From Pedobacter duraquae (lineage in GTDB: Bacteria > Bacteroidota > Bacteroidia > Sphingobacteriales > Sphingobacteriaceae), in the NCBI RefSeq assembly GCF_004362245.1, contig NZ_SNWM01000001.1, forward strand, positions 806,001 through 870,000: DNA of 64,000 nt, in the 5' to 3' direction. Below, piece after piece: positions 34,796 to 43,223 of the stretch (its first letter is position 1; every line of letters begins with the position of its first letter). Made by a program: the position numbers and the translations under genes. Under the pieces are notes generated by a model that saw nothing but the letters and a program-made list of their open reading frames with translations, made no database searches and was not told the origin of the DNA.

Positions 34796-34887
34796 TCCTC
34801 ACCGGTAACGCAGACAGGATAGGTTTATGAGGTTTAGTAATACTTCCTTTATCTACAAAGAACATTTTAGCAAAAACCCTACAAAAC

Positions 34888-34905
34888 ATTTCAAACGATT
34901 GAAAT
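34888..34905. promoter_or_regulatory. 18-bp palindrome upstream of the 7TM/zinc-ribbon gene
   Basis: ATTTCAA, four bases, TTGAAAT: seven perfect pairs, 98 nt upstream of the start at 35003. Candidate operator; regulator unknown. Confidence 0.4.
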
Positions 34906-35002
34906 CAGCCTAAACACAATATTCGTTTCCCAAACACTTGATTTTGGTTCCGCAGCATGAAATTATCAGTATACTCATGTTGAATTCTAACCAAATGTAT
35001 TC

Positions 35003-36898
35003 ATGTCAGAAATTACCGCGGAACGCCCCGCTCACTTTGCAAAAAGATGGGCTACTCTTAAAAGAACAATCTATTTTCTGTTTCCAGCGATATTTCTGCT
35101 GAGCCACGCACTAGCACAGGTTCCTGTTTTGATTGCCGACGATGCTTCAAACCATATCTTCACTTTCAACCAACTCGACATACTTGAGGATCCTTCAGGC
35201 AATCTGAATATAGGGCAAATACTGACAAAGACTTACCAGGAAAAATTCGTCCCGAATTCAAACAGAATACCAAAAAATGTAAATACAAAATCTGTTTATT
35301 GGTATAGGTTTAGGATCGGCCATAACGCATCTTCTTCCAAACGCTGGATCCTGGAGTTTTTTGATCAGTCTATTGCCGACTTACAGCTCTTCGTACCAGA
35401 CGGATTCAATAGTTATGAAGTCAATAACTTTGGCACAAATTATGGGTTTGGCAAACGCGTATACGAACATAAAAATTTCACCTACGATTTAAACAACAAG
35501 TCAGACAAGCTCCTCACCTATTACATTCGGTTAAAATCACCTAATCCCGTCAGCGCAATCGTTGTACTTCGCGATCTGCGTTGGTTTCTGGGGTATGCAC
35601 TGAGTGAATATTTTATTTTCGGCCTTTTTTATGGGATGATCCTCGTATTTTGCCTGTACAATCTCCTCATGTACTTTGCGATAAAAGGGAAACAATACCT
35701 TTTTTATGTACTTTACAACCTCAGTATAGGTCTTTATGAGATGTGCAATGATGGAATTGCGTTCCAATACTTATGGCCCTCCTACCCGCAATTAAATTCA
35801 TACGGTTTCGGTATCGCCCTCTTTCTCAGCAGCATCTTTGGCATACTGTTTACCGTTAATTTCCTTTACTTGAAATTTAAAGCACCGAAGTTTTACAAGG
35901 CTATGCTCCTCATGGTAGTGCTAAGATCGATTTTCTTTATCGCCTGCTTTTTTGACACCACGCTTTTTGACCTGAAGGTGATCGAATTTTTTCCACTGTT
36001 GCTCGTTTTCGCCGCAGCAATTTATGTATACAGAAAAGGTTATAAACCTGCTGGTTTTCTTGTACTTGGTTACGGTTTTTTAGTAGCAGGGTTCACGATT
36101 AAAATCCTGCTGCAATTGCAATGGATTCCTTATGGAGTACTAAACTATTACAGTCTAAGCATGTGTTTTCTTGTCGAAATGGTCGTGGTCTCATTTGCTA
36201 TCGGTAATAGCATCAGATCGCTCAGGAAAAAGAAAAACAGAGCACAAAAAAGAATCATCCAGCAACTTCAGATTAATGAACAGCTAAATCAGCAACTCAA
36301 TGCAGAGCTTACAGAACTCGTTGAGCAACGAACAGTTGAGATCAGAGCCAAAGCGGCAATTATTGAAAAGCAAAATCTGGATATCTCCATCATGAACTCC
36401 ATGCTCAAAAAAGATAATAAGGAGTTAAATTTAAACATTGAACGTGTTACAAAGGCGAGAATGACCTCCAAGATCGTCGATTTCGAAGAATTCAGCAGGG
36501 TTTATCCAGACAAGGAGCATTGCCTCAAATATCTGTCTGACCTGAAGTGGAATAAAGGATATGCCTGCAAAAAATGTACAAATACGCATTATTTATCCGG
36601 ACAAACACTCTATGGCAGAAGATGTACCAAATGCGGATACGATGAATCCGTTATAGCCAACACCGTTTTTCAAAATAGCAGAATTCCGATCAACAAAGCG
36701 CTTTATATGCTTTTTCTGGTCTACAACTCTAAAGGAACAATTTCGTCTTACAAACTCTCCCAGATCCTGACCATCAGACAAAGTACCTGCTGGACCTATA
36801 ATTCAAAAATGCAGAAGCTGTATCATGAGCGAAAAGATGAACTGCTCAAAGCAGGTGAAGAGGGCTGGAGCAAAATGGCACTGGGCAATCCGTTTTGA
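35003..36898 (+). CDS. 7TMR-DISM sensor fused to IS1595-type zinc ribbon/HTH
   Basis: A 631-residue membrane sensor. A signal/anchor segment (about 20-38) is followed by a periplasmic 7TMR-DISMED2-like sensory domain (about 45-190), seven membrane helices (about 200-400), a cytosolic coiled coil (405-500), and then a zinc ribbon with Cys522-x2-Cys525 and Cys541-x2-Cys544 followed by a helix-turn-helix-like part (about 560-605). The last section matches the N-terminal DNA-binding part of IS1595/ISXO2 transposases; no DDE catalytic domain follows. Normal 7TMR-DISM proteins end in a kinase, cyclase or LytTR domain. The protein therefore looks like a membrane-held DNA-binding regulator, with the SusC/SusD operon 256 bp downstream as a natural target. 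Domain calls are from motifs; the role is inference. Confidence 0.82.
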   Translation: MSEITAERPAHFAKRWATLKRTIYFLFPAIFLLSHALAQVPVLIADDASNHIFTFNQLDILEDPSGNLNIGQILTKTYQEKFVPNSNRIPKNVNTKSVYWYRFRIGHNASSSKRWILEFFDQSIADLQLFVPDGFNSYEVNNFGTNYGFGKRVYEHKNFTYDLNNKSDKLLTYYIRLKSPNPVSAIVVLRDLRWFLGYALSEYFIFGLFYGMILVFCLYNLLMYFAIKGKQYLFYVLYNLSIGLYEMCNDGIAFQYLWPSYPQLNSYGFGIALFLSSIFGILFTVNFLYLKFKAPKFYKAMLLMVVLRSIFFIACFFDTTLFDLKVIEFFPLLLVFAAAIYVYRKGYKPAGFLVLGYGFLVAGFTIKILLQLQWIPYGVLNYYSLSMCFLVEMVVVSFAIGNSIRSLRKKKNRAQKRIIQQLQINEQLNQQLNAELTELVEQRTVEIRAKAAIIEKQNLDISIMNSMLKKDNKELNLNIERVTKARMTSKIVDFEEFSRVYPDKEHCLKYLSDLKWNKGYACKKCTNTHYLSGQTLYGRRCTKCGYDESVIANTVFQNSRIPINKALYMLFLVYNSKGTISSYKLSQILTIRQSTCWTYNSKMQKLYHERKDELLKAGEEGWSKMALGNPF

Positions 36899-36950
36899 TG
36901 CGCCAGTAAATCATAACGGTAGCTGGACATCAGATTTTTTAAAAAAAATC

Positions 36951-36970
36951 AATGCTTACGAAGCGTATTA
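36951..36970 (+). promoter_or_regulatory. 20-bp repeat element upstream of susC-like gene, copy 1
   Basis: AATGCTTACGAAGCGTATTA matches copy 2 at 37028-37047 in 17 of 20 positions, same orientation, starts 77 bp apart. It contains the inverted TACG-3-CGTA. Candidate activator or repressor site. Confidence 0.55.
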
Positions 36971-37027
36971 GTCAATAAAACTGAAAGCCCCCTTAAACAT
37001 TTTCAAGGCCTGTTTTCCATTTTACCT

Positions 37028-37047
37028 AATGCGTATGAAACGTATTA
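37028..37047 (+). promoter_or_regulatory. 20-bp repeat element upstream of susC-like gene, copy 2
   Basis: AATGCGTATGAAACGTATTA, with one base added on the left, forms an imperfect palindrome TAATGCGT-5-ACGTATTA (7 of 8 pairs). It ends 48 bp upstream of the -33 element of the susC-like promoter. Confidence 0.55.
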
Positions 37048-37095
37048 CTATTTAACACAACTAACTATATACTAGATATTTACAAATAAATTTGC

Positions 37096-37126
37096 TTGCA
37101 TTTTGGTGATAATAAGGATAGGTTTG
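37096..37126 (+). promoter_or_regulatory. Promoter of the SusC/SusD operon
   Basis: TTG (37096-37098), a 20-base spacer and a perfect TAGGTTTG (37119-37126). Transcription would start near 37133, about 22 nt before the ATG at 37155. A second -7-like TAAATTTG lies at 37087-37094 without a -33 partner. Confidence 0.65.
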
Positions 37127-37154
37127 TGCTTAACCATTATAAACCAGATTGAAC

Positions 37155-40100
37155 ATGAGAAGAAAATTTACCCTACTTATTACTTTGGTTTGCCTTGCCT
37201 TTAACTTTTGCTTTGCGCAAAACATAAATGTCAGGGGAACCATTAAAGACAAAAACGGAACAGCCATACCAGGGATTTCTGTTAAGGTTAAAAACACCCG
37301 TACCGCTGTCTCATCAGGGCCAGACGGAAGTTTTTCCATTACTGCCCCCTCAAATGGAACACTTGTATTTTCAGCAGTTGGCTTTTCAACCCAGGAGGTC
37401 GCTTTAAATCAGCGTACAAACATTACCATTACCCTATTGGAAGAAGTACAGGCGATGAACGAAGTAGTCGTGATCGGCTATGGAACATCTACCAAAAGAG
37501 ACGCTACAGGTGCAATCTCGAGCGTTAAGGCCACACAACTTGAAAATGAAAATCCACAGAGCATCGCTGATGTCCTTAAAGGAAACATTCCAGGCCTATC
37601 AGTAGGGCTCAGCTCTAGTGCCAAAGGTGGTGGCGATTTATTGGTTAGGGGGAAATCTACCTTAAGTGCCGGTACCTCGCCATTGATCGTCCTGGATGGT
37701 ATCATCTACAACGGACAACTGGCAGATATCAACCCCAATGATATCGATGCCATCGATGTATTGAAAGATGCCAGTTCACTCGCTGTTTACGGTGCAAAAG
37801 CCGCAACAGGAGTTATTGCTATAACGACCAAAAGAGGAAAAGGTGATGCTCCAACGATTACCTTCAATACCAATATAGGTCTGGCGCAATTGGCAAAAAA
37901 TATGAGGCCTTACGATGGTGAAGGCTTTCTGGCCTGGCGTGGCGATGTACTACGAAGTGGTGCGACAACCCCTGAATACCTTTATAACGACCCAAGAAAC
38001 CTGCCTGCAGGAGTCTCCATTACACAGTGGCTCAATGGTCAGAGTGGGGATCCGGTAGACCTGTGGTTAAACAGATTAGGCCTGGTAGCCAATGAAAAAG
38101 TCAACTACCTAGCCGGAAAAACAACAAACTGGTATGATGATATCTTCAGAACTGGCTTCAGACAAGATCATACATTAAGTCTTGGTGGCAAAAAGCAAGA
38201 GATCACCTATTACATGTCCCTAAATTACCAGAAAAACCAGAACGTTATTGAAGGCGGTGATTATACTGCTGTTAGGGGAAGGATTAATCTTGAGGGTGAG
38301 GCAGGAAAGTTTCTTACCCTGGGCGCCAACGTTCAGTTTGCTGATCGTGACGAAGCCAGAACAGGAGATGGATCTACTGAGGCCGACTGGAATCAGTTAA
38401 CCAGCTTATCTCCTTACGGCGATAAGTATGAAGCTAACGGTCAATTGAGAAGAATCCCTACAGATGACAGCGGACTGAATGCGAGAAATCCATTTTTAAG
38501 TATGACCTACAACGGTCGGATGAATAAGCAAAATACCATTTTTGCCAGTCTATATGGAAAAGTAAAATTACCCTTTGGAATTACTTATCAACTGAACTTT
38601 AGTCCTGGATTAGACTTCTACAGGACTTTCGATTGGAAGAACTCCAAAAACCCTGATGTGGTAACCCCTGGAGGTTCTGCAACCCGTGCCACAGAAACCC
38701 GATACAACTGGCAGGTAGATAACCTGATCAAGTGGAATAAAACGTTTGCAAATATCCATGCGATAGACGTTACCCTCCTTGCTAATGCTGAGAAATACCA
38801 AACCTGGTGGACACAAGCTGGTAATGAAGGATTCGTACCCGGAGATGTATTGGGATATCATAACCTTTCCAGCGGCATTAAACCAACAACGAATAGTGAA
38901 GATAAGGTCTACACAGGTGATGCGCTGATGGCAAGATTAAACTACAGCCTGTTATCAAGATACATTCTGACACTTTCGCTACGTAGAGATGGATATTCCG
39001 TGTTCGGCGTAAACTTTAAACGGGCAACATTCCCGGCCGCTGCCCTTGCATGGATCTTTACAGATGAATCATTCATGAAATCCCAAACCTGGTTAAACTA
39101 TGGAAAACTGAGGGTTTCTTATGGGGTAAACGGAAACCGCGATTTGCGCAATCCTGACAACGGTACAGTAGATCCTTATGCTGCATTGGCACAATTGGCA
39201 AGTGGCAAATACCAGACTGTCAATTCAAGCGGAAGCGCGTCTGACGTAAATACCGTTCAGATCGGATCAAAAATGGCAAACTCTGACCTAAAATGGGAAG
39301 AAACTACCGCCATGAATATTGGTCTTGATTTTTCTATTTTCAACGACAGAATCAGCGGCTCAATTGAGGCTTACAACAAGAAAACCAGTGATTTGCTTGT
39401 TAGGCAGACCTTACCCAATGTGAGTGGTTATGCTAACGTATATTCTAACCTTGCCCGTATCAACAATAAAGGTGGCGAATTCAGTCTGACTACAAAAAAC
39501 CTGGTGTCTGGCAATATCAAGTGGAATACCAACTTCAACTTCTCCTTAAACAGGAATAAGATCGTTGCCCTTGCGTTGCCAACAGACGACCCTGGTAACG
39601 GTTGGTTTATTGGTAAAGACATTGACGTAATTTGGGATTATAATATCCAGGGCGTTTGGCAGGAAAACGAAATGACCGAAGCAGCAAAGTTTACCAAAGC
39701 AGCTATTAAGCCAGGTGATTTTAAACTGGAGGACATCAATGGCGATTATGCCTACTCTGACGCCGATAAAAAATTCCTGGGTTATAAAACTCCGCGATAT
39801 TTTCTGGCGATGCGCAATGAGTTTAACATCTTCAAGAACTTCGACTTCTCTTTCCAATTATTGGCGAACTGGGGACAGTTAAAGCAATACAATTCTGCTA
39901 AAAATCAACCTGGAAGTGTTGGCTTCGCCCGCTCATCTTCTTATGTGCTTCCATATTGGACACCAAGTAACCCGATTAACGATTACGCGAGACTAAATTC
40001 AGGATCCAGTGGAACAAGCTATAATGTATACTGGGACAACTCATTTATTAGATTAAATACCGTTGCCCTATCCTACACACTTCCTTCCAACCTAATGACC

Positions 40101-40241
40101 AAACTGCGTGTAAAAAGTGCTAAAATTTATGCAAACGTAAATAATGCCGGTTATTACGCGCCTAAATGGACCTATTGGGATCCACAAAATAATGGACCTA
40201 CACCTAGATATTACACTTTGGGCCTAAACATCAACTTATAA
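37155..40241 (+). CDS. SusC/RagA-family TonB-linked outer-membrane transporter
   Basis: A 1028-residue importer of oligosaccharides or peptides. Signal peptide MRRKFTLLITLVCLAFNFCFAQ, then a carboxypeptidase-regulatory-like domain (VRGTIKDKNGTAIPGISVKV), the TonB-box region EVVVIGYGTSTKRDATGAIS, a plug with NIPGLSVG and DVLKDASSLAVYGAKAATGV, and the 22-strand barrel. The ATG at 37155 is preferred to an in-frame TTG at 37149. SusD follows 11 nt downstream. No ECF sigma/anti-sigma or hybrid two-component regulator is adjacent; the 7TM/zinc-ribbon protein is the only candidate regulator nearby. Confidence 0.95.
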   Translation: MRRKFTLLITLVCLAFNFCFAQNINVRGTIKDKNGTAIPGISVKVKNTRTAVSSGPDGSFSITAPSNGTLVFSAVGFSTQEVALNQRTNITITLLEEVQAMNEVVVIGYGTSTKRDATGAISSVKATQLENENPQSIADVLKGNIPGLSVGLSSSAKGGGDLLVRGKSTLSAGTSPLIVLDGIIYNGQLADINPNDIDAIDVLKDASSLAVYGAKAATGVIAITTKRGKGDAPTITFNTNIGLAQLAKNMRPYDGEGFLAWRGDVLRSGATTPEYLYNDPRNLPAGVSITQWLNGQSGDPVDLWLNRLGLVANEKVNYLAGKTTNWYDDIFRTGFRQDHTLSLGGKKQEITYYMSLNYQKNQNVIEGGDYTAVRGRINLEGEAGKFLTLGANVQFADRDEARTGDGSTEADWNQLTSLSPYGDKYEANGQLRRIPTDDSGLNARNPFLSMTYNGRMNKQNTIFASLYGKVKLPFGITYQLNFSPGLDFYRTFDWKNSKNPDVVTPGGSATRATETRYNWQVDNLIKWNKTFANIHAIDVTLLANAEKYQTWWTQAGNEGFVPGDVLGYHNLSSGIKPTTNSEDKVYTGDALMARLNYSLLSRYILTLSLRRDGYSVFGVNFKRATFPAAALAWIFTDESFMKSQTWLNYGKLRVSYGVNGNRDLRNPDNGTVDPYAALAQLASGKYQTVNSSGSASDVNTVQIGSKMANSDLKWEETTAMNIGLDFSIFNDRISGSIEAYNKKTSDLLVRQTLPNVSGYANVYSNLARINNKGGEFSLTTKNLVSGNIKWNTNFNFSLNRNKIVALALPTDDPGNGWFIGKDIDVIWDYNIQGVWQENEMTEAAKFTKAAIKPGDFKLEDINGDYAYSDADKKFLGYKTPRYFLAMRNEFNIFKNFDFSFQLLANWGQLKQYNSAKNQPGSVGFARSSSYVLPYWTPSNPINDYARLNSGSSGTSYNVYWDNSFIRLNTVALSYTLPSNLMTKLRVKSAKIYANVNNAGYYAPKWTYWDPQNNGPTPRYYTLGLNINL

Positions 40242-40252
40242 GTCAAAAGAAA

Positions 40253-42127
40253 ATGAAAAAGCTAAATCAAAATATAATCGTATTGCTTGCATTCCTCTCC
40301 CTGGTTTCGGCCGCAGGATGTAAGAAAAGCTACCTGGATTCTGAACAGCTTTCCAGCTATGCACCAGAAAACCTAAACAACCTTGTGGCTATGAAAGCCG
40401 CGTTGAATGGACTTGGCTTGGCCACAAGAAGGGAATTCTTTGGCGACTCAGCACCTCTGCTAACGGAATCAATATTTTCCGACGTCGCCGTAGATGGTAC
40501 CACTGATAAAAATACGCCGGCACAGGACCTTATTTCCAGAATCACGCCTGACGCAAATTTAAATAGCGACGATTTCAATAAAATCGGTTGGTATTGGGAC
40601 AATGAATTTGTTGCCGTAAGACAGGCAAATACAATCATCACAAATATCGACAGACCGACCTATGCCTCAGAATCTGAAAAAAATCAAATCCTCGGGGCAG
40701 CCTATTTTTTCAGAGCTTATAATTATTACCGACTGGTTCATCAATTTGGCGACGTTCCACTCCTGCTAAAAGACCTGGAAAATCCGAAAGCCGATTTCTA
40801 CTCCACCAAAAGAGAGGTCATTCTCGCAAAAATGAAATCAGACCTTGAATTTGCACAAACCTGGGTTTTAGATGGCGGAAATAAAGGCGAAGTAACTAAA
40901 GGTGCCGTAAGTCACCTGTTAACAAAAGTCAACTTAGCACTCGGTAAATTTGATGACGCTATTGCATCAGCAACCAATGTAATTGGCAGTGGAAAGTATG
41001 GTATGATGACAGCCCGTTTTGGTAGTACTGCTACGGATCTTACAAAGAATGTGGTTTGGGATTTACATCGGATGGACAATAAATCCATTGCATCAAACCG
41101 CGAAGCCTTGTTTCTGGTGATAGATAGAGAAGCCTTCGCCGGATTTACCGCTCTTGGGTCTCAGCTCATGAGAAATACTGTTCCTGCCTGGCATTTCGCC
41201 AATGTGAAAACGCCATCTGGTGCAACTGCAATCGTTGATGCCGTAACAGCGGAAATTCCACTTACCAGAATGTATGGAAGAGGCATTGGCCGCTACCGCG
41301 GAACACCGTACAGTACTAAATACATCTGGACAGATAATACGGATTACCGCCATGCAAAAGGTATGTGGATGGAAATGACTGACCTGGTATACAATAACCC
41401 TGCATTAAAAACATCAACCAATGCCGCCGATCGTGCTCTATACGGTCAGCCACTTCAGGAATACTCATCTGCTAACATCAAACAACGATTTACAAATGGT
41501 GCTTTAGATACTATCAGACATTGGTTTGGATGGCCGCACTACAAAGTGTTTATCAACTCTACAAATGCGCTGGCGAACGACCCGTATTGGACGCCGCCAC
41601 GCGGTACCAATACCGATTGGTACGTTTTCAGATTGGCTGAAACTTATTTATTAAGGGCCGAAGCATATTACTGGAAGGGTGACCTGGCACTCGCTATGGC
41701 CGACATCAATGTAGTTAGAAGTCGTGCAAATGCTACCTTGCTCACAAACGCAAGTCAGATTACCATCGGTACGATCCTCGATGAAAGAGCCCGCGAGCTG
41801 TATTGGGAAGAACCACGTAAAACTGAGCTAGCCCGCATAGCCTACATCTTCGCGCAAACAGGAAAACCAGCATACAATGGCAAGACCTATACCGTTGCTG
41901 CCTTCTCAGATAATAATTTTATGTACGACAGAATTATAGAAAAAAATGATTTCTATAAAAATCAAGTACCAACCTTACAAGGTGTAAACTATAAAATCGC
42001 TCCTTACCATGTATTATGGCCTGTTCCAGCAAGCGCCCAAAGATTTAATACAGAAGGGCGAATCAATCAGAATAAAGGCTATGCTGGTTACGAACTCAAC
42101 GTACCCGCTCTCGACAAATTGCCTTAG
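40253..42127 (+). CDS. SusD/RagB-family nutrient-binding lipoprotein
   Basis: A 624-residue surface lipoprotein that caps the SusC channel and binds substrate. Lipobox VSAAGC puts the lipidated Cys near residue 23. TPR-type helices and the family segment FFRAYNYYRLVHQFGDVPLLL are clear, as is the C-terminal RARELYWEEPRKTELARI. It is paired with the SusC gene upstream. A hairpin follows the stop codon; a PL14-like lipoprotein gene lies 211 bp further on. Confidence 0.94.
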   Translation: MKKLNQNIIVLLAFLSLVSAAGCKKSYLDSEQLSSYAPENLNNLVAMKAALNGLGLATRREFFGDSAPLLTESIFSDVAVDGTTDKNTPAQDLISRITPDANLNSDDFNKIGWYWDNEFVAVRQANTIITNIDRPTYASESEKNQILGAAYFFRAYNYYRLVHQFGDVPLLLKDLENPKADFYSTKREVILAKMKSDLEFAQTWVLDGGNKGEVTKGAVSHLLTKVNLALGKFDDAIASATNVIGSGKYGMMTARFGSTATDLTKNVVWDLHRMDNKSIASNREALFLVIDREAFAGFTALGSQLMRNTVPAWHFANVKTPSGATAIVDAVTAEIPLTRMYGRGIGRYRGTPYSTKYIWTDNTDYRHAKGMWMEMTDLVYNNPALKTSTNAADRALYGQPLQEYSSANIKQRFTNGALDTIRHWFGWPHYKVFINSTNALANDPYWTPPRGTNTDWYVFRLAETYLLRAEAYYWKGDLALAMADINVVRSRANATLLTNASQITIGTILDERARELYWEEPRKTELARIAYIFAQTGKPAYNGKTYTVAAFSDNNFMYDRIIEKNDFYKNQVPTLQGVNYKIAPYHVLWPVPASAQRFNTEGRINQNKGYAGYELNVPALDKLP

Positions 42128-42338: not shown

Positions 42339-43223
42339 ATGAGCAAAAAAACTAAATCATCCAGATTAGCAGGCATAGCTTTGTTAATTTTTTCATTTGC
42401 AATTGCTGGCTGTTCTAAAGATGCCGCAGAATCAAATCAGGTTCCCACACCTACCGAAAAGCGACCAGGAAATGAAAGTATGGCTGTTGCTGCAGCACAA
42501 GCATACCCAAGTAATATCAATACGCAGTTTAATCATCCCGACGGATCCTTCTCCTATAGTGAGGCAAGCGGCGATTTCGGCGGTGCCTCATTGACCGGCT
42601 GGAATGAAGACCGCGCTTACATTTCTAGTGGATGGGCCCGGGCAACGCTGGCGCCAAACTCCGTTTCTAACGGATTGATTGCTGGGGCCGACATCTCTGA
42701 TGGGTCTGCCTACGAAGCAACATTCAAAGTACGTTTTCATAGCCAGTTTGACTGGAGCAGAGGTGGTAAAGTAGGCTTTGGCTTCCTCATTGGTGAAGGT
42801 AATACTGGCTGCGACATTGCGACAGACGGAAATGGTGGCAGTCTGCGACTGATGTGGTACAACTCTGGTTCCAGAGTATACTTCCAGCCTTATGTATACC
42901 ATAGAGATATGGCCGGCCCTTGCGGAGATACCTTCGGAAAAACGTATCCTACATCCGGCAGCCTGGTTAAAGGAAATACCTATACCGTGCATCTATACGT
43001 AAAAAGTAACACAGGATCCAGCAAAAATGGCTGGGTACAAGTGCTCATCAACGGTACAACGGTATTGGATCAGTCGATCCGTTGGACAACAAACGATGCA
43101 CAAAGGCTCATCAACAGGTTATCCTTCCACAATTTCAGAGGCGGAAAAGATGTTGCCGTTTGGGGCTCAAGCCAAACCAGTTACATCTATTTCGACGACC
43201 TGATCGTTAATAAAATTCAATAA
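42339..43223 (+). CDS. PL14-like polysaccharide lyase lipoprotein
   Basis: A 294-residue lipoprotein (lipobox AIAGC, Cys near 25), so probably at the cell surface. The main domain (about 60-294) is a beta-jelly-roll resembling polysaccharide lyase family 14: SGWARATLAPNS, the core GGKVGFGFLIGEGNTGCD, GGSLRLMWYNSGSRVYFQPY, NGWVQVLINGTTVLDQ and the ending NRLSFHNFRGG...SYIYFDDLIV. PL14 members cleave alginate or glucuronan. The nearby SusC/SusD pair suggests it makes fragments of a uronic-acid glycan for import. The fold call is moderate; the substrate is unknown. A lectin-like role without catalysis is an alternative. Confidence 0.65.
   Translation: MSKKTKSSRLAGIALLIFSFAIAGCSKDAAESNQVPTPTEKRPGNESMAVAAAQAYPSNINTQFNHPDGSFSYSEASGDFGGASLTGWNEDRAYISSGWARATLAPNSVSNGLIAGADISDGSAYEATFKVRFHSQFDWSRGGKVGFGFLIGEGNTGCDIATDGNGGSLRLMWYNSGSRVYFQPYVYHRDMAGPCGDTFGKTYPTSGSLVKGNTYTVHLYVKSNTGSSKNGWVQVLINGTTVLDQSIRWTTNDAQRLINRLSFHNFRGGKDVAVWGSSQTSYIYFDDLIVNKIQ

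Follow-up and report, generated by a model that had tools for sequence, protein, structure and literature searches.

What does a membrane receptor do with the DNA-binding front of a transposase at its C-terminus? The question is raised by a gene in a 64,000-nucleotide stretch of the Pedobacter duraquae genome (the window), whose product the original prediction read as a one-component, membrane-bound transcription factor made with a domesticated transposase module. This reading is supported by the position of the module in a phylogenetic tree, by the genes that adjoin the regulator, and by operator-like repeats, although DNA binding itself is inferred. Our analysis indicates that the protein is very probably a membrane-bound one-component regulator of a glycan-use (SusC/SusD) locus; the ligand and the activating role are likewise inferred. 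Beyond what had been predicted, the analysis adds the susCD and CAZyme targets, an operator, swaps of the sensor, and the antiquity of the fusion. The features of the locus are collected in Table 1.

Table 1. Regulator gene, encoded domains, putative control elements, and downstream genes, in window coordinates.
Feature	Coordinates	Strand	Basis or remark
Regulator gene, 631 aa (DISMED2, 7TM, coiled coil, IS1595-type zinc ribbon/HTH)	35003..36898	+	
7TMR-DISMED2 periplasmic sensor domain, residues 57-189	35171..35569	+	Pfam PF07696, E 2e-28
7TMR-DISM_7TM membrane domain, residues 202-401	35606..36205	+	PF07695, E 1.3e-40; hydropathy segments
Long helix/coiled-coil linker, residues 433-489	36299..36469	+	AlphaFold2 helix; conserved
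IS1595-type zinc ribbon, residues 503-546, Cys 522/525/541/544	36509..36640	+	Pfam PF12760
Helix-turn-helix (HTH) helices, ~residues 582-609	36746..36829	+	AlphaFold2 helices; NCBIfam IS1595 match 558-613
Operator-like repeat 1, TGCTTACGAAGCGTATTA	36953..36970	+	
Operator-like repeat 2, TGCGTATGAAACGTATTA	37030..37047	+	77 bp from repeat 1
Promoter match TTG-N20-TAGGTTTG before susC	37096..37126	+	Sequence match
susC-like TonB-dependent transporter, predicted target	37155..40241	+	TTG start at 37149 also possible
susD-position gene straight after susC, predicted target	40253..42127	+	
Polysaccharide lyase 14-type gene	42339..43220	+	Pfam PF21294, E 1.1e-15

The window protein satisfies the criteria for a 7TMR-DISM receptor, a 7TM membrane domain plus a DISMED extracellular domain, and carries the IS1595 zinc ribbon and HTH at the C-terminal end, whereas in transposases they are N-terminal. 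The zinc ribbon scores below the 25.4-bit cut-off in hmmscan (E 6.6e-5, 23.2 bits) and above it in a six-frame search of the window (28 bits). The NCBIfam model of the IS1595 transposase (NF033547) aligns with its positions 1-57 of 215 (E 0.0018), a match that scores far under the model's own cut-off. The four zinc ribbon cysteines were confirmed and are invariant across 16 aligned family members. The receptor and the IS1595-type C-terminus of the original prediction are confirmed. The last 150 residues are rich in basic residues (24 K+R versus 13 D+E). A catalytic transposase domain and terminal repeats had been said to be missing, and indeed no DDE domain (DDE_Tnp_IS1595) was found by Pfam at E values up to 1, nor any inverted repeats of at least 14 nt within 34796-37154, round the regulator gene. 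At the same Pfam threshold, the protein has no histidine kinase, receiver, AraC-type HTH, or DUF6377.

Two AlphaFold2 models cover the C-terminal part. The linker helix is residues 2-58 of a 200-residue construct beginning at residue 432 (residues 432-631; 41 aligned rows, pLDDT 84.8, pTM 0.64), and the HTH helices are residues 99-106 and 110-126 of a 148-residue construct beginning at residue 484 (residues 484-631; 37 rows, pLDDT 87.1, pTM 0.80). Neither model gave a Foldseek match against the PDB at E ≤ 0.001, and a phmmer search of PDB sequences returned nothing useful for the window protein. In VIA-align, the top Z scores were 5.2 and 4.7; the tied rows included homeodomains, RptR, and the IstA transposase HTH (Z 4.6 and 4.3). 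The modelled fold is a common trihelical arrangement, and structural likeness of this kind proves nothing.

A fusion confined to this genome, by recent insertion or assembly join, would have undone the original prediction. Among the matches listed in the search for its spread, 43 rows in 31 of 99 relatives (own genome included) run from the N-terminal domain to at least residue 611, with identities of 37-70% when the window gene itself is excluded, and the P. duraquae genome holds a paralogue 49% identical to the window protein. Chance and an assembly join are ruled out by these full-length relatives and the paralogue, and the fusion is widespread. A profile of the last 150 residues of the family (A1), which includes one row from L045, a protein running off its contig end, matched 111 of the 301 genomes of the taxonomic family at E ≤ 1e-60; at E ≤ 0.001 it matched 134, a count that takes in transposases. 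Counting any match, again with transposases, 101 of 395 genomes were hit at class level and 57 of 395 at phylum level. In named genomes, a derived peptide pattern matched 479 stretches, 472 of which encode relatives. The complete 7TM fusion is present in five families or more (f1, f12, f15, f36, and f44). In L192, two regulators of this family stand in tandem at a contig end (3875-5788 and 5876-7789, +).

The same output module is also found behind other sensors. In a 1,078-residue protein (L191:11112-14345, -), seven Reg_prop repeats and a Y_Y_Y domain lead into this coiled coil and zinc ribbon/HTH; neither a kinase nor a receiver nor an AraC domain was found in it, and the same 16-kb stretch also encodes a 7TM-type regulator. 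Two PAS domains are joined to the module in L043:2941-4383 (-), where no transmembrane domain appeared among the Pfam matches and a glycan locus has not been shown. In L042 and L044, short membrane segments precede the coiled coil and zinc ribbon/HTH. A stand-alone zinc ribbon/HTH protein of 137 residues is encoded at L196:1197-1607 (-); its W-x-x-[IL] tail resembles that of the fused regulators. Two other candidates for stand-alone modules, in L045 (158 aa) and L048 (173 aa), were dropped, as both proteins run off contig ends.

To place the module, a tree of 67 rows chosen by hand was examined. The 37 sensor-fused rows (7TM, Reg_prop/Y_Y_Y, PAS, and short TM) and the one solo protein form a single clade (support 96/88), nested in a larger clade (100/98) that includes IS1595-type transposases. 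The nearest rows are the transposase of L217 and eight catalytically altered copies in genome G256, joined at a weaker node (95/79). Seven end branches are long, the PAS and solo rows among them, and their placement is unsure. On sequence evidence, the zinc ribbon and HTH are derived from an IS1595-family transposase whose catalytic domain was lost, and the simplest reading of the tree would be one domestication followed by sensor exchange. The eight G256 genes (L144, L194, L195, and L211-L215) form a clade of their own (100/97), and all are altered in the same way at the first two of the catalytic Asp positions present in their relatives. In the pairs compared they are ~70-80% identical, and no common ends outside the gene were found among the eight copies inspected. 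They are possibly a second domesticated, multi-copy family.

The genes around the regulator point to glycan use. The susD name of the second predicted target comes from its position and from its use as a query, which found other susD-like genes, without a domain scan; the polysaccharide lyase gene possibly belongs to the same locus. For comparison we took the best 80 of the peptide-pattern stretches, a set of 79 loci. With L107 excluded (no focal gene there), susC follows the regulator as the next gene on the same strand in 36 of 78 loci. The corresponding figures are 6 of 729 for the other genes of those loci and 2 of 260 for genes from 20 stretches of the P. duraquae genome; in L062 and L063, a small opposite-strand ORF comes first, then susC. 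Within three genes, susC or a relative of one of 14 CAZyme queries lies beside the regulator in 76 of the 79 loci, versus 12 of the 260 control genes. Of the 79, 40 have susC, 36 have CAZyme relatives without susC, and 3 lack both (L076, L087, and L110). This second comparison is generous, as the CAZyme queries come mostly from the same loci and the controls from one genome; the susC comparison is independent of the choice of queries. Scans of the loci found CAZymes that include GH2, GH3, GH5, GH16, GH30, GH88-type, PL14, and alginate-lyase-type enzymes.

Fourteen further loci (L197-L210), for more distant families, were inspected. The next same-strand gene is susC in six of them (L201, L204, L205, L206, L208, and L210), and in L209 susC is divergent and adjoins the regulator. 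It lies farther along in four, behind GH2/GH5 genes (L200), GH3 genes (L202 and L203), or two unscanned genes (L207). L199 has a GH81 gene upstream of the regulator and a GH16 gene downstream, a layout that L197 and L198 resemble, their genes being unscanned. As judged by these comparisons, the predicted regulator gene stays beside susC or CAZyme genes across several families.

If the module binds DNA, its sites might be sought between regulator and target. In the window, both repeats and the promoter match sit in the regulator-susC gap (36899-37154). The promoter match follows TTG-N20-TAnnTTTG, which we take to be the Bacteroidota-type consensus (-33/-7). Both repeats precede the -33 element, the nearer one ending 48 bp ahead of it. 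The -7 region of that promoter (37115-37128) recurs upstream of the regulator as AGGATAGGTTTATG at 34816-34829, where it possibly marks a promoter of the regulator itself. In an alignment of seven orthologues, the repeats are conserved against diverged flanking sequence. The site can be written TG-N6-AARCGTATYR; it is strand-specific in regulator-target gaps and often occurs as two direct repeats 76-92 bp apart.

Of 77 loci, the window included, 51 have the core AARCGTATY in the gap in sense orientation. The 34.5 kb of these gaps hold 83 sense-strand sites versus 7 antisense; elsewhere, counting both strands, there are 33 in 76.6 kb of other gaps, some of which lie in the same glycan loci, and 88 in the remaining 1.23 Mb. 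Over 87 sites, G stands at -7 in 94% and T at -8 in 75%, neither being part of the search pattern, and 32 of 34 successive spacings fall within 76-92 bp. A position weight matrix (PWM) found a site in 59 of 73 gaps, two or more in 52, and none in 14; in controls, 9 of 73 antisense gaps had a site, and 20 shuffles gave a mean of 1.45. As the matrix was trained on the same gaps, the 59 of 73 is partly circular; pattern and matrix come from partly identical loci, which are not independent by descent.

The site is not uniform across the loci. Some regulator-target gaps carry a single site, and none was found in L192. In family f15, the core is absent from the gap in all five loci and no repeat pair could be resolved there; the f15 HTH differs from the Pedobacter type in its second helix, a change that would fit an altered site. 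In family f44, AAGCGTATA occurs in L201 and L203, both with TG at -8/-7, and L202 has AAGTGTATA at the aligned place, a variant of the site (AAGTGTAT). One site lies on either side of the Reg_prop fusion of L191. Where susC is divergent from the regulator (L209 and L042), the site shares its strand with susC and does not run along the regulator.

Searches that start from the site are less bound to the training loci. In the whole P. duraquae genome, TG-N6-AARCGTATYR occurs 11 times and the reversed pattern 8 times, so a single site means little. Three of the 11 fall in two regulator-target gaps, two in the window and one in the gap of the paralogue, where it precedes a GH30-type gene that shares 77% identity with the L079 GH30. 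A protein-blind search for paired sites in 151 genomes of the family found 35 places in 27 genomes, versus 1 for the reversed pattern, several of these genomes being of the same species as training loci. We inspected 30 places, the other five having no locus. At 16 of them, the window among these, the pair stands shortly after the end of a regulator gene. The gene directly after the pair is susC at 18 places and a CAZyme gene (GH5, GH30, GH3, and one lyase) at 8 more; four places (L238, L258, L260, and L261) look like chance matches. At 10 of the 26 susC or CAZyme places, there is no regulator within the ~3 kb fetched, so the regulon may extend past the adjoining gene.

The operator could itself be old. 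AARCGTATYR might be a relic of ancestral IS1595-type ends, captured jointly with the module, scattered ends having wired early glycan loci. A search of 14 loci for AARCGTA in the ends of related transposases gave no consistent pattern. In a related transposon of genome G1013 (L218 ~888 and L219 ~2109), AAACGTA lies ~22 bp inside a boundary shared by two copies; this may be an echo of the operator core, or chance. That element is the sole hint of joint capture, an idea that we regard as quite unlikely.

How might the protein work? In the mechanism that we propose, the DISMED2 domain, which faces the periplasm, where SusC/SusD deliver oligosaccharides, would sense a saccharide or breakdown product, an inferred ligand. 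From there the signal would cross the 7TM domain and run down the coiled coil, which would hold the zinc ribbon/HTH together as a dimer; the signalling helices that join receptors to outputs offer a likeness, as described in the available part of one study (PMC1592074). Its binding sites would be direct repeats separated by ~7 to 9 helical turns, an arrangement also proposed for SusR; from these sites, upstream of the -33/-7 promoter, the dimer would turn on susCD and the degradative genes.

On the sign of this control there is a competing view, in which the protein represses and, upon sugar binding, comes off the DNA or frees the promoter. Position alone cannot fix the sign, and the single sites of several gaps could block upstream elements. 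However, the place of both window repeats, ahead of the -33 element, suggests activation over repression, and SusR and similar membrane-bound regulators of glycan loci are activators, as far as the accessible part of the literature source goes (PMC3878776); we hold a repressor to be unlikely. It might also be argued that the repeats are bound by another regulator, such as a soluble factor of the same loci, while the transposase-derived domain acts otherwise, for example by binding protein. There are no direct binding data for the zinc ribbon/HTH to set against this, and the f15 regulators adjoin susC without the site, although their different second helix fits a changed one. Yet the protein-blind pairs so often have a regulator ending just upstream, a separate site stands in the gap that follows the paralogue, before a GH30-type gene, and the site accompanies the module in family f44 and around the L191 fusion, which together leave another binder very unlikely. 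A C-terminal domain that binds protein instead of DNA would have refuted the original prediction, and it is unlikely given the operator.

That the module is no more than a decaying transposase fragment, accidentally fused and functionless, would account for its descent and for the loss of the catalytic domain. This is practically untenable: the frames are open over their full length, the cysteines and HTH residues are invariant, many genomes carry the gene, and its context and sites are conserved, so that conservation already refutes it. A membrane-bound activator of the adjoining glycan genes remains the preferred reading.

Control of glycan loci in Bacteroidota has been ascribed to SusR-like proteins, hybrid two-component systems (HTCS), and ECF sigma/anti-sigma pairs, in what could be consulted of PMC3878776. 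The family described here is probably a new regulator class for such loci with a readable operator, its DNA binding being inferred. If true, glycan loci outside Bacteroides would have one more class of regulator, which arose from a single domestication of a transposase DNA-binding domain and has interchangeable sensors and an operator readable from sequence. Its regulons would be open to test at beta-glucan, alginate-type, and further loci of Pedobacter, Mucilaginibacter, and their relatives, and it would provide an example, from bacteria, of a transposon DNA-binding domain turned sensory regulator.

No description of a 7TMR-DISM/IS1595 fusion, or of such a regulator class, was found in the open-access library searched, subscription papers and preprints being excluded. 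The combination of a 7TM receptor with a DNA-binding domain is not itself new, as a ChiS-family DNA-binding domain fused to 7TMR-DISM in Proteobacteria has been published, a precedent for a C-terminal DNA-binding output. In the portion of that source at hand, the ChiS-family domain differs in being a helix-sheet-helix variant from proteobacterial genomes (PMC8092284). With IS1595-family transposases, the window protein shares the zinc ribbon, the helices that follow, and its place in the tree; unlike them, it lacks DDE and terminal inverted repeats, and its module is fused behind a sensor. HTCS proteins are also regulators of glycan loci, and the L191 relative even has an HTCS-type sensor (Reg_prop plus Y_Y_Y), but both it and the window protein lack the histidine kinase, receiver, and AraC domain. 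HTCS direct repeats are 21 bp apart on average, by the part of the account available (PMC3878776).

The closest likeness in layout is to the SusR-like regulators of Bacteroides, described in the sections of PMC3878776 open to us as membrane proteins of glycan loci that sense in the periplasm and bind DNA through a C-terminal part in the cytoplasm. The predicted SusR sites, by the same partial source, are direct repeats spaced 67 or 77 bp apart (PMC3878776). These spacings led us to consider membership in the SusR group, which was set aside in favour of an apparently different family, as the two SusR-type proteins compared are DUF6377 proteins without the zinc ribbon. Two SusR-type genes were compared (L282:4623-6224, -, and L277:6902-8569, -), identified by position beside susCD and SusE/SusF-type loci and not from the B. 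thetaiotaomicron sequence. Both encode DUF6377, one with weak TPR matches, neither has a zinc ribbon by Pfam, and the window-family profile matches them only at E 0.02-0.04 with filters off; going by these sequence scores, a remote HTH relation cannot be excluded. DUF6377 is a Pfam family of unknown function, for which these two genes suggest a SusR-type role. A membrane regulator beside susCD with long-spaced direct repeats is common to SusR and the window family, a likeness of working and not of membership.
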